Origin: Halovenus rubra
GTDB lineage: Archaea; Halobacteriota; Halobacteria; Halobacteriales; Haloarculaceae
Assembly (NCBI RefSeq): GCF_026586665.1
Contig: NZ_JAODIY010000001.1
Span: 248,001-312,000, forward strand
DNA: 64,000 bases
Reading direction: 5' to 3'
The notes under the pieces were generated by a model that was not told where the DNA came from, searched no databases, and saw only the letters and a program-made list of their open reading frames with translations. The position numbers were made by a program, and so were the translations under genes. Positions 19,341 through 22,915 of this stretch are shown here, one piece after another. Numbering within the stretch: position 1 is the first letter of the stretch; every line of letters begins with the position of its first letter.

Positions 19341-19449
19341 CTCGGTTTCTGTCTGTGTTCCGGTGTTGGTTGTGGCGAACGTACTTGCCAGCCAGCTTGA
19401 TGTAGAGACTGATACCTGAAGCCGGTATAGCCGTACGGAGATGCAAGGA

Positions 19450-19483
19450 GGAAGCTCCGTGCTTTAGGCGGGAATAATGTCAC
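19450..19483 (+). repeat. Degenerate IS200/IS605 right-end-like sequence
   Basis: The stretch reads GGAAGCTCC, then GCTTTAGG, and ends AATAATGTCAC. It lines up with the intact right end at 22541-22579 (GGAAGCCGC, CCTTCAGG, GGATGTCAC), but the stem no longer pairs well. It is probably the scar of an older insertion of a related element. Confidence 0.45.
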
Positions 19484-19557
19484 TGGACTTTGTGCGTAGT
19501 GTTCTGAGCAGAAAAATAGTGCACACAAATATAACAGAGAGGTCCGTCCCACTCGTA

Positions 19558-19697
19558 TGGCCGAATTTTCTGAGACACAGCTTTTTGCTCTCTCTGTCTG
19601 GTCGCCGCCATACTTGGATTCGGTCTCTCGACTGCATTTTTTGATGGTTCCGGTCTTCTCGTGTCAATTTTCGTCTACGCGGGTATCATCTTAGATC
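19558..19697 (+). pseudogene. Fragment of a small membrane-protein gene, frameshifted and truncated
   Basis: A TATA-like AAATATAA about 27 bases upstream leads to ATG 19558 (MAEFSETQLFALS). That frame soon loses sense, while the next frame reads LVAAILGFGLSTAFFDG and then LLVSIFVYAGIILDQ, a clear pair of membrane helices. A one-base shift near 19590 would join them. The coding sense then ends abruptly where the IS-like hairpin begins at 19699. I read this as the front end of a two-helix membrane protein cut by a mobile element. The family is unknown. Confidence 0.4.
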
Positions 19698-19698
19698 A

Positions 19699-19730
19699 GC
19701 GGGAAATCCCGTCCTTCAGGACGGGAAGGA
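19699..19730 (+). repeat. Solo IS200/IS605 end-like hairpin
   Basis: Perfect stem CCCGTCC (19708-19714) and GGACGGG (19719-19725) with loop TTCA, preceded by GCGGGAAAT. It has the same layout as the tnpB right end at 22541 but lacks the terminal GGATGTCAC and has no transposase gene beside it. Confidence 0.55.
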
Positions 19731-19781
19731 ACGCGTAAGCTTCGGCAATATCCACCGTTTCCGTAGCTAACTGAATACCAA

Positions 19782-20045
19782 TCACTCGGCTCGCGGGTCG
19801 GAAACAAACTCGTAGACCCCTTTGCCTCGGATGTTCTTGATGTGATGGTGTTCTGCTAGACGGACGAGGCGCTGATTGATATACGACCTAGAGACACCAC
19901 CACCTTCAGTTTGTTCAGCTATCACTTCCTCAAGAATTGCGGGCGTTGCCCGCCCTTCGGTTGTGAGGTAGTCAAGTATGATCTTATCCTTCTCGTTCAG
20001 TTTCGTCTCATCCAGCACCATACTCGGAACGTTTTTCCCGCCCAT
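19782..20045 (-). CDS. Winged-helix regulator, phiH1-repressor-like
   Basis: The 87-residue protein is a compact winged helix: NEKDKIILDYLTTEGRATPA (first helices), an extended recognition region VSRSYINQRLVRLAEHH, and the wing IKNIRGKGVYEFV. This is the pattern of the phage phiH1 repressor family, abundant in haloarchaeal genomes and mobile elements. Start at ATG 20045; ATG 20021 is an alternative. It is divergent from the small genes that lead into tnpA-tnpB, and an array of TATCTCT repeats lies in between, so it probably represses one or both directions. Confidence 0.72.
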   Translation of the reverse strand: MGGKNVPSMVLDETKLNEKDKIILDYLTTEGRATPAILEEVIAEQTEGGGVSRSYINQRLVRLAEHHHIKNIRGKGVYEFVSDPRAE

Positions 20046-20071
20046 ACATCGTGGTTCTGGTTGTAGGCTCT

Positions 20072-20115
20072 TATCTCTTACCACTATCTCTTGTTTCTAT
20101 CTCTGGTTAGAGATA
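20072..20115. promoter_or_regulatory. Phased TATCTCT operator array
   Basis: TATCTCT occurs at 20072, 20085 and 20098, exactly 13 bases apart, and the third copy forms a perfect 7-4-7 inverted repeat with AGAGATA at 20109-20115. It lies between the winged-helix gene and the divergent operon, the place for an autoregulatory operator. Confidence 0.65.
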
Positions 20116-20152
20116 GTTAGTGTTAAGTGGCTGGCACTGTTCTATTGTAGTA

Positions 20153-20218
20153 AGCACAGGAGCGGTAGAACGCCGCCGGGTGCGGGAACACCCGCCGACT
20201 GTGCTGGTGACTACCAGC
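20153..20218 (+). other. Structured leader or IS left end with overlapping hairpins
   Basis: AGCACAG (20153-20159) pairs with CTGTGCT (20199-20205) around an inner hairpin CGGGTG/CACCCG (20177-20194). GCTGGT (20203-20208) pairs with ACCAGC (20213-20218) directly before the ATG at 20219. The outer stem and the last hairpin share bases 20203-20205, so they exclude each other. It could be the left end of the IS200/IS605 element or an RNA leader; the sequence does not decide. Confidence 0.45.
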
Positions 20219-20512
20219 ATGAAGAAATCAGACGAGAACACGCTTGAAAGTATCGCACGCGAACTGTACCACGACGCTCAGTACATCGGAACGGACGGCG
20301 ACGACGCGGTTCACTTCTGGAGTCTGTACCACCAGGCCGTCGTCGTGATTGACGACGAGATGGAGACCTACGAACTGGCCGACACGCCACTTTCCACGCT
20401 CGGAGACTGGACCGAGCACACCGAGGCGAAACGCGGTGAGTGGGACGAACTGCTGGTGGCTGACGGCGGCATGGCCGGAGTGATCAACACGGCAATGGAG
20501 GCCGGTGCGTGA
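20219..20512 (+). CDS. Small acidic protein of unknown function upstream of tnpA
   Basis: The 97-residue protein starts MKKSDENTLESIARELYHD and has a mixed alpha/beta look with HFWSLYHQAVVVIDDEMETY, resembling a short sensor-like strand-helix fold. No membrane segment or catalytic motif is seen and I do not recognise the family. Its TGA overlaps the next ATG (TGATG), and the following gene is in turn one base from tnpA, so all four reading frames look like one operon. It may be cargo of the insertion element. Confidence 0.65.
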   Translation: MKKSDENTLESIARELYHDAQYIGTDGDDAVHFWSLYHQAVVVIDDEMETYELADTPLSTLGDWTEHTEAKRGEWDELLVADGGMAGVINTAMEAGA

Positions 20513-20862
20513 TGCAGCGACGTGATGTGCTGACGGCACTGGCAGCGGCTGGATTCCTGCCGACAACAGGCCGCGTATCGGGCCAAGAGATGGACGTTTC
20601 CACTGACGAGTACGGGAGTGGCTGTGTCTCGTTGCCCACGCACGATTCGCTGTGGTCGGCGGTTGATTTCGGTGAGGTAACAGCCGACGACTCGCAACTC
20701 TCGGTGAATGGCCACTGGTCCGACGACGAACCAGCACACGTCGAAGTCCATATCAGCGCCGGATCTGCGTCAGTCACACTCAACCTTTCTCCCAATCAGG
20801 CCCAGAACGTGGCCAGAGACCTCGAATCTGCTGCGGTTGAGGCTGAACAGCGCGGAGACTGA
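20512..20862 (+). CDS. Small exported protein (Tat-like signal) upstream of tnpA
   Basis: The 116-residue protein begins MQRRDVLTALAAAGFLPTTG, a twin-arginine-like signal without a lipobox Cys. The mature part has a beta-rich region (HVEVHISAGSASVTLNLS) and an acidic helix at the end. Function unknown. It overlaps the gene before it by a TGATG junction, and its stop is followed after one base by the tnpA start (TGATATG). Such tight packing leaves no room for a transposon left end between it and tnpA. Confidence 0.62.
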   Translation: MQRRDVLTALAAAGFLPTTGRVSGQEMDVSTDEYGSGCVSLPTHDSLWSAVDFGEVTADDSQLSVNGHWSDDEPAHVEVHISAGSASVTLNLSPNQAQNVARDLESAAVEAEQRGD

Positions 20863-20863
20863 T

Positions 20864-21256
20864 ATGAACTACGACCTTCAGACTGGTTCGCACACGGTGT
20901 ACGCCTGCCAGTACCACCTGGTGACGGTGACAAAGTACCGAACGGCACTGTTGTCGGGAAAGGTACTGAACCGTCTCGAAATACTCGCCCACGACATTGC
21001 GGCCGACCACGGCTGTGAGGTGTCGGATGTCAATGGCGAAGCAGACCACGTACATCTCTTGTTCAGTGCCGAACCAACCACAGACCTCACAGAGTTTATC
21101 AACCACCTCAAAGGCGTCACCTCCCGTAAACTCAGACAAGAGTACACTGGTCTGAAACAGCGACTTCCGAAAGCTCTGTGGCAGCCAGGGTACTTTCTGT
21201 GTACGACTGGACAGGTAACACTGGACGATCTTAGGGAGTACGTGGAGAATCAATGA
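20864..21256 (+). CDS. tnpA: IS200/IS605 transposase TnpA (Y1 HUH)
   Basis: The 130-residue protein is a full-length Y1 transposase: the HUH pair is H62 and H64 in DHVHLLF, and the nucleophile is Tyr126 in LREYVENQ. It cuts and joins single-stranded DNA at subterminal hairpins. The protein ends at the usual ENQ and its TGA overlaps the tnpB start (ATGA). It appears intact. Confidence 0.93.
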   Translation: MNYDLQTGSHTVYACQYHLVTVTKYRTALLSGKVLNRLEILAHDIAADHGCEVSDVNGEADHVHLLFSAEPTTDLTEFINHLKGVTSRKLRQEYTGLKQRLPKALWQPGYFLCTTGQVTLDDLREYVENQ

Positions 21257-22527
21257 GCGCGACCGTCACGAAAACGTTGCAAGCCACGCTCGCCCCGCCG
21301 ACTCAACACAAAGAGCGGAAGTTACGAGAGACGCTGGAGACCTACCGCGAAGCACTCCGAGAGTCGTTCAGTGCCGGTTGTGAGACGCAAAAGGCAGTCA
21401 ACGATATCGTGACGCCCTACGACCTGACCAGCTACGCGAAAGACGCGCTGAAAAACTACGTCCCACAACTCTGTGGTGACACTTACGACGCCGACGAACT
21501 CGACAGCGACCACCCTGTCCGGTTCACTGAGCGCGGATTCAACGTCGACCACTCGCCGGAGCGCGACCACAGTTTTTGCTGGCGAGTCCCTCAGGCAGGA
21601 CGCGGTAATGCGTTCTGGATACCAATTCGTATCAGTCCAGGCCAGCGCGACCTGTGGCACGATTTCCTCGACGGGGACGCCGACGTGGGCGAGTTCCGAT
21701 TGCAACGCCACCGCACGTCCTGGCAGTTGCATGTCACTGTCGAATACGAGGTGCCAGAATCAGACCACGCGGCGACTGACACCGACGTGACACCGGTCGG
21801 GTTCGACATCGGAGAAGCGCATCTGCTAGCGGGCTGTGCCCGCACAGATGATTCTCCGACCGACCCACTACTCGTCAACGGTGGTCGTGCCCGACACCTC
21901 CGTAAGGAGATGCACACGACCCTGAAACGCCTGCAAGAGCGTGATGCCGCTCAATGGCGGATTGACGAACGATTCAGCCACTACCAGAACGCACTCACCG
22001 ATATCGTGGAGAAGGCCAGCCGTCGGGCGGTCGAGTATGCCCAACGCTTCGAGAAACCGGTGATCGTGCTGGAAGACTTGAGCTACATCCGCGAATCACT
22101 CGACTACGGGAAGTGGATGAACCGACGCCTCCACGCATGGGCGTTCGCTCGATTGCAGGGACGCATCGAGGACAAGGCCCGCGAGGCGGGTATCCCGGTC
22201 GAGTACGTCAACGCGGCGTACACGAGTCAGACGTGTCACGAGTGCGGCCACGTCGGGCACCGGAACGGCGACGAGTTCCGGTGTAGCAACGACGAGTGTT
22301 GGGTGTCAGAGTATCACGCAGACATCAATGCGGCGGTCAACATAGCGAACCGCCTAGATCCGTGGGGTGAGAGCCTGCCAGTGAAAGCGGCGGGCGATGA
22401 CATCCCACGGAATGGGTGTGCCTGTGACAGCACCAGGACCCACCGAGAGACGAGCGAGGAATCCTCGCAGATGACGCTCTCGGCATTCCACGGGTCCGAA
22501 CCCTCTGCCAGCACTAACGACACTTAG
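21253..22527 (+). CDS. tnpB: RNA-guided nuclease TnpB of IS200/IS605
   Basis: The 424-residue protein has the split RuvC catalytic residues Asp185 (GFDIGEAH), Glu274 (VLEDLSY) and Asp357 (EYHADINAA), and a zinc finger with Cys328, Cys331, Cys344 and Cys349; the last pair is spaced CxxxxC instead of the common CxxC. The N-terminal helical part is complete. TnpB proteins are guided nucleases that use an RNA from the element's 3' end, so the right-end hairpin just downstream likely belongs to its guide RNA. It appears active as encoded. Confidence 0.92.
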   Translation: MSATVTKTLQATLAPPTQHKERKLRETLETYREALRESFSAGCETQKAVNDIVTPYDLTSYAKDALKNYVPQLCGDTYDADELDSDHPVRFTERGFNVDHSPERDHSFCWRVPQAGRGNAFWIPIRISPGQRDLWHDFLDGDADVGEFRLQRHRTSWQLHVTVEYEVPESDHAATDTDVTPVGFDIGEAHLLAGCARTDDSPTDPLLVNGGRARHLRKEMHTTLKRLQERDAAQWRIDERFSHYQNALTDIVEKASRRAVEYAQRFEKPVIVLEDLSYIRESLDYGKWMNRRLHAWAFARLQGRIEDKAREAGIPVEYVNAAYTSQTCHECGHVGHRNGDEFRCSNDECWVSEYHADINAAVNIANRLDPWGESLPVKAAGDDIPRNGCACDSTRTHRETSEESSQMTLSAFHGSEPSASTNDT

Positions 22528-22540
22528 CTGGTATTCTCAT

Positions 22541-22579
22541 GCCGGGAAGCCGCGCCCTTCAGGGCGCGGAGGATGTCAC
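22541..22579 (+). repeat. Right end of IS element with hairpin; likely 3' scaffold of TnpB guide RNA
   Basis: Perfect 8-base stem CCGCGCCC (22550-22557) and GGGCGCGG (22562-22569), loop TTCA, followed by AGGATGTCAC. In related elements the guide RNA ends in this hairpin region and the bases after the terminus (from about 22580) form the guide. Confidence 0.7.
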
Positions 22580-22915
22580 GTCTGTGCTGCGCTTTCACAC
22601 AGGGTACCAGAGTTAACCGGCTCTGTTCTGTGCCCACCCACAATGCTCCTGTAACACATAGCTGAAACGAGTAATATCTATTTTGACCTATACTTTTCAA
22701 CCACTTCCTACTCTGTCTTGTGGTGAGACCAGCCTGACCAGTCACTGCTTGCCCTGCACTGACCGCTATCTGAGTCCACGAAAACAACTCTCTGACCCAC
22801 TCATAACTATACACGGCTATCAATAGTCCAGTTCCGGCCGGAAAACGCTGGACTGCGTCGATAGCACTTATGCCATGCTTTGGCAGTTACTGCTTACTAT
22901 CGTCTTGAAGAAAAC
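22580..22915. other. Intergenic stretch between IS right end and tRNA gene
   Basis: No gene is supported here; the open frames on both strands lack haloarchaeal composition. The first bases after 22580 would be the TnpB guide. The rest presumably contains the promoter-distal flank of the minus-strand tRNA. Confidence 0.5.

Follow-up and report, generated by a model that had tools for sequence, protein, structure and literature searches.

We examined a stretch of DNA from the haloarchaeon Halovenus rubra (contig NZ_JAODIY010000001.1, positions 248,001 to 312,000; these 64,000 nucleotides are the window hereafter) that contains an insertion sequence (IS) of the IS200/IS605 type, with tnpA and tnpB genes, and ahead of tnpA a group of small genes and regulatory features that probably belongs to the same element. 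From its left end (LE) to its right end (RE), and including two small open reading frames (ORFs) which we term P1 and P2, the locus comprises:

19688..19780, plus strand: LE, with the subterminal hairpin CCCGTCCTTCAGGACGGG at 19708-19725; the inner ~50 bp, which are the tnpA promoter part of canonical LEs, are missing.
19782..20021, minus strand: winged-helix (wHTH) regulator gene, a divergent ORF whose stop codon lies two bases from the LE.
20072..20117, no strand assigned: operator-like repeats of predicted function, with TATCTCT three times at 13-nt spacing and an inverted AGAGATAG.
20153..20218, plus strand: structured RNA leader, a compact three-way junction with the closing stem AGCACAG (20153-20159) / CTGTGCT (20199-20205).
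20203-20218, plus strand: alternative hairpin of the leader, GCTGGT-GACT-ACCAGC, abutting the P1 start codon.
20219..20512, plus strand: passenger P1, 97 amino acids, member of a haloarchaeal family found mostly on Haloarcula plasmids.
20512..20862, plus strand: passenger P2, 116 amino acids, with a Tat-like N-terminus and a weak DUF6907-like domain (E 0.002, below cutoff).
20864..21256, plus strand: tnpA, an IS200-type Y1 transposase (Pfam Y1_Tnp, E 1e-38; NCBIfam transpos_IS200, 5e-40).
21253..22527, plus strand: tnpB, an RNA-guided nuclease (guided_TnpB NF040570, 2.3e-40).
22540..22579, plus strand: RE, with the hairpin CCGCGCCCTTCAGGGCGCGG and, at its terminus, GGATGTCAC; similarity stops at ~22579 in relatives and at exactly 22579 in the Halorussus copy described below (L184).

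The features expected of IS200/IS605 elements are present: a single-domain Y1 (HUH) TnpA is partnered by a TnpB RNA-guided nuclease, and subterminal imperfect palindromes homologous to the ends of the family stand at both termini (19708-19725 and the hairpin within 22540-22579). A preliminary description of this DNA had noted two small genes running into tnpA with a spacing of 0-1 base, and the ORF coordinates agree: P1 ends in a stop codon at 20510-20512 whose last base is also the first base of P2 (20512), P2 in turn stops at 20860-20862 and tnpA starts at 20864, and the tnpB start (21253) overlaps the tnpA stop. It had further ascribed a Tat-like signal to one of the two; the N-terminus of P2 is indeed twin-arginine-like (MQRRDVLTALAAAGF), but its match to Pfam TAT_signal falls below the cutoff (E 0.11).

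When the upstream DNA of 22 related tnpA genes, whose proteins are mostly 58-62% identical, was aligned, a common LE emerged. From left to right the canonical layout has, in most cases, CTATC followed by TTGATTCAGCGAGAGAATCCCG..., a hairpin, ...GAATACCC, a promoter-like stretch and tnpA; in the relatives examined the LE start and tnpA are 145-252 bp apart, and the interval holds no ORF and no passengers. An nhmmer profile of 20 related LEs, built with neither the window's own LE nor a hand-shortened row from locus L076, matched 19688-19780 with an E-value of 2e-6 (profile positions 3-138 of 188), the next best E-value in the window being 0.73. This is the one real match to the profile in the 64-kb window, in the same orientation as tnpA, complete in its outer part and stopping at GAATACC, where the passenger module begins; the ~50 bp of canonical promoter are replaced by ~1085 bp holding the winged-helix gene, the TATCTCT repeats, the hairpin-rich leader, P1 and P2. 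No match to the profile was recovered within 20512-20864, where a left boundary would mark the small genes as host DNA. The notion that P1 and P2 are plain host DNA to the left of a normal element was accordingly discarded, as no LE separates them from tnpA and one is found upstream; the preliminary description was thus right that no left end fits between the small genes and tnpA, and its picture of a TnpA-TnpB element whose passengers share an operon with the transposition genes stands.

LE-like sequences are common, being recovered by Infernal from 126 of 142 genomes, with 12 in the genome of H. rubra itself; hence the position of the window LE and the existence of a second copy weigh more than the match as such. 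In that survey the window LE scored an E-value of 9e-16 in its own genome, with a model (R1) whose seed (alignment A1) contained the window LE itself, along with the L076 left end, the long hairpin loop of which had been shortened by hand. The pentamer preceding the LE is TCATC in the window and CCTCCG-like in L184, as opposed to CTATC in nearly all canonical relatives, and the bases 5' of the LE hairpin also differ between these two copies and the canonical LEs. At the other boundary, DNA similarity to those same-genus relatives that have tnpA starts at or just inside this gene and ends at ~22579, and P1 and P2 are absent there.

The second copy emerged from a TnpA pattern scan of genome contigs, which returned one relative, in Halorussus ruber (NZ_SBIT01000002.1; locus L184), with a TnpA 66% identical to that of the window. 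Its order of truncated LE, divergent winged-helix gene, leader, a 65-residue ORF overlapping tnpA, tnpB and RE is that of the window. In a blastn comparison the two loci share two collinear blocks, 19696-19755 (the LE) and 20909-22579 (tnpA to the last base of the RE), and nothing else in 8 kb. Comparison of junctions with another copy, which had been suggested at the outset, therefore places the outer limits of DNA similarity in the two ends. The LE alignment scores 73, against a maximum of 35 in shuffles, and the two TnpAs form one clade with support of 100/99. When the L184 TnpA was used as a query against 392 genomes of the order, only the window's TnpA reached 1e-40 outside the query's own genome; this cut is strict, and weaker passenger-carrying relatives may have been missed. 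Comparison of the two loci shows the boundaries of the element, the order of its parts and a single origin of both copies. They differ in that L184 has one small ORF in place of P1 and P2, a winged-helix protein of unrelated sequence and a shorter TnpA N-terminus. The simplest history suggested by these sequences would be a single capture, after which the small ORF and the regulator were exchanged or drifted. With genes other than those for transposition between the ends, and the same layout in the window and L184, the element has the make-up of a passenger-carrying IS (tIS), as judged from these two copies.

The captured part has a wide distribution of its own. Among the P1 homologs fetched, most have ahead of them a structured leader that runs up to the start codon. 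Four leaders served as the seed of a covariance model, which recovers the others; leaders fitting this model precede both P1 homologs and the L184 ORF. Covariation shows the structure: in 20 leaders (alignment A6) 96% of the cells are paired, with compensatory change at 12 of 20 pairs, and in 67 further leaders these values are 98.4% and 17 of 20, bearing in mind that alignments fitted to the covariance model favour the structure in such pair counts. The covariation scores were reached by 0 of 500 shuffles, and shifting the pairing partners by one to three columns reduces the pairing to 27-54%. Directly before the ATG, 51 of 58 leaders form a further hairpin with 5 bp or more (6% in shuffles), which often shares bases with the 3' side of the closing stem or directly continues it. 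Conserved positions extend into the coding region, which is outside the model (A29 in 54, C36 in 53 and G37 in 56 of the 58), and all three are present in the window. For the window leader the closed state and the pre-start hairpin state have predicted energies of -28.2 and -30.0 kcal/mol, respectively, within 2 kcal/mol of each other. Two mutually exclusive conserved structures, one of them at the start codon, are thus predicted, an arrangement resembling that of riboswitches. Searches of Rfam gave no match at the gathering threshold in L039, L042, L046, L049 and L184, and none at the window leader at E<=5; nor did the literature searched, with incomplete coverage, describe a matching RNA.

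At E<=0.05 the leader model matches 218 of 392 Halobacteriales genomes, in 67 of 95 genera. In 60 fetched regions, whose sequences were read by eye, the downstream genes code for small proteins of many kinds, among them P1-like, SWIM-type zinc-finger-like and Tat-signal-like ones. This tnpA turned up at just one of the additional leader loci inspected, namely the Halorussus element itself (L225). Homologs of the winged-helix protein occur in 22 of 142 genomes; a leader lies in the divergent position at 6 of 19 such loci (E up to 0.03), and two loci found from the leader side, L278 and L279, have a divergent winged-helix gene next to a leader outside any IS. These associations suggest that repressor, leader and small ORF were a pre-existing unit, and the comparison shows this module in free-standing form. 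Some loci have leader operons in rows, with small genes that differ or are related from one operon to the next, resembling an array of expression cassettes (L250, at 44-55 kb of G239:C108, with four; also L264, L234 and L238). Proteins of ~300 residues with the common motif IVTDRHHASADRYEADDPQNQIGG...SPFPLSGWLRHG are often encoded shortly after a leader (L253, L254, L263, L277, L280, L283, L286 and L042); the motif reads like that of a CRISPR Cas7/RAMP-type protein.

The two passengers differ in their distribution. Of 146 family genomes, 34 contain P1 homologs, many of them in Haloarcula, and those fetched are not beside tnpA; 23 Haloarcula plasmids match a P1 homolog. No P1-family match was found in phage records, while viral contigs gave P1 matches of only 29% and no match to TnpA. 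P2 has no homologs in the 146 family genomes or in pattern scans of genome and viral contigs, and shows one weak pairwise similarity, to ORF1 of L269. Single-sequence AlphaFold models had a pLDDT of 44 for P1 and 40 for P2 and were unusable. CRISPR-like repeat arrays lie beside P1 homologs at L057 and L062, in Haloarcula-type genomes.

These observations are consistent with a history in which the stretch between the outer LE and tnpA of an ancestral element, including the normal tnpA promoter, would have been exchanged for an entire control module of haloarchaeal type, comprising a two-state RNA leader, one or two small ORFs and, ahead of these, a divergent winged-helix regulator with a shared promoter/operator region. 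The winged-helix protein might bind the TATCTCT repeats and repress both promoters, and the leader might govern initiation at P1 through the pre-start hairpin, by opening and closing access to the start codon, with read-through and translational coupling accounting for the expression of P2, tnpA and tnpB. In this way the module would hold transposition off until a signal releases the repression, with P1 and P2 travelling as passengers. They may be functional cargo, co-regulators or both, and are presumably dispensable for transposition, since the canonical relatives are without them. More tentatively, and at a little under even odds, the leader could be a new class of haloarchaeal RNA switch (a three-way junction, a start-codon hairpin and conserved nucleotides to ~37 into the coding sequence) that controls many accessory operons of Halobacteriales, from which an IS200/IS605 lineage captured leader and repressor, placing transposase and TnpB under two-layer, signal-responsive control.

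We put at roughly 0.8 the probability that a TnpA-TnpB IS200/IS605 element of a small haloarchaeal lineage spans about 19688-22579, with a captured haloarchaeal control module replacing the stretch between its outer left end and tnpA. Several points weigh against this. No second copy was found in the H. rubra genome, and there is no clean empty site in the genus, two close relatives having other genes between the flanking deoxyhypusine synthase-like gene and tRNA gene. Only one other copy was recovered, in one genome; its small ORF differs, and its winged-helix protein has no detectable similarity to that of the window. The window leader matches the leader model only weakly (model R3 with filters off: best match 20153-20221, 11 bits, E 0.045 over 3.1 kb searched). 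Lastly, the CTATC pentamer is not intact, and with its alteration to TCATC the element may no longer move.

A different view of the module's role, on the unlikely side but the strongest of the competing explanations, is that it is true cargo, of use to the host or in competition with other elements, and not chiefly a control on transposition. Many genomes indeed have P1 homologs and leader operons as free-standing accessory genes, frequently several at once, and the small ORFs differ between the window element and L184. Yet in each copy a regulator and a leader are part of what was captured, and the tnpA promoter has given way to it, a pattern that speaks for control of the operon; cargo and regulation are, moreover, mutually compatible. 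Improbable is the proposal that the LE at 19688 is left from a separate, decayed element, the tnpA-tnpB element having lost its own LE by deletion and become fused to a host operon of winged-helix gene, P1 and P2. Its attraction lies in the abundance of LE-like sequences noted above, in the existence of LEs without an adjoining tnpA (L152, L153) and in another right-end-like hairpin just upstream (19447-19484). Set against these, Halorussus has this order and this truncated LE at a different site, the two TnpAs being of one clade, and given 12 LEs in 3.6 Mb the chance that one would lie, correctly oriented, in the 1.2 kb before tnpA is estimated at ~0.002. Hardly credible is the preliminary placement of the left end at the hairpin near 20153. 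This hairpin (20153-20200) is real and strong and precedes the first gene, but it is the P1 leader, similar to those found before P1 homologs outside IS elements. The LE profile misses it, a full outer LE lies further left, and the Halorussus copy contradicts the placement; with the LE ~470 bp to the left of it, the third, divergent winged-helix gene also comes to lie inside the element.

Further traces of such elements were noted around the locus and elsewhere in the genome. The right-end-like hairpin at 19434-19484, which ends in AATGTCAC ~200 bp left of the element and has a similar stretch in the same genome at G000:C1:202724-202773, is probably the remnant of a different IS605-type element. 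REs 91% identical to that of the element over 103 bp occur at two contig ends of the H. rubra assembly (G000:C8:2-104 and G000:C38:40086-40188), which suggests that a relative present in multiple copies interrupted the assembly. A sub-threshold Rfam match to HgcC (25.7 bits, cutoff 50) covers 22452-22592, over the tnpB 3' end and the RE, the region expected to hold the TnpB guide RNA.

With a repressor, RNA leader and passenger ORFs placed before its tnpA, this lineage would show that single-strand transposons can gain and retain foreign modules, and it offers a testable case of TnpA/TnpB expression under external control; it also exposes an apparently undescribed structured leader that precedes very diverse small genes across the sampled Halobacteriales genomes. 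IS200/IS605 elements have been described as holding only genes for transposition and its regulation (PMC8612924), and the literature searched, with incomplete coverage, contained no passenger-carrying member. The closest known elements are the haloarchaeal ISHhu2, ISHla19 and ISNph5, which share the transposase family (TnpA 62-63% identical) and TnpB; unlike the window, the related elements examined have no passengers, with tnpA directly after the LE and its own promoter segment, and ISHhu2 and ISHla19 are annotated with tnpA and tnpB alone. The IS605-type elements and PATEs of Haloquadratum and Natronomonas have near-terminal palindromes, a conserved targeting oligonucleotide and TnpA/TnpB (PMC3119063); they differ in being described with tnpA/tnpB or no genes, the word 'passenger' being absent from that text. 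The free-standing leader operons of Halobacteriales, such as the Haloarcula plasmid P1 genes, L278 and L279, resemble the other half of the locus, having the leader RNA with its alternative pre-start hairpin and, in several cases, the divergent winged-helix gene, but they lie outside IS elements and no tnpA follows them.
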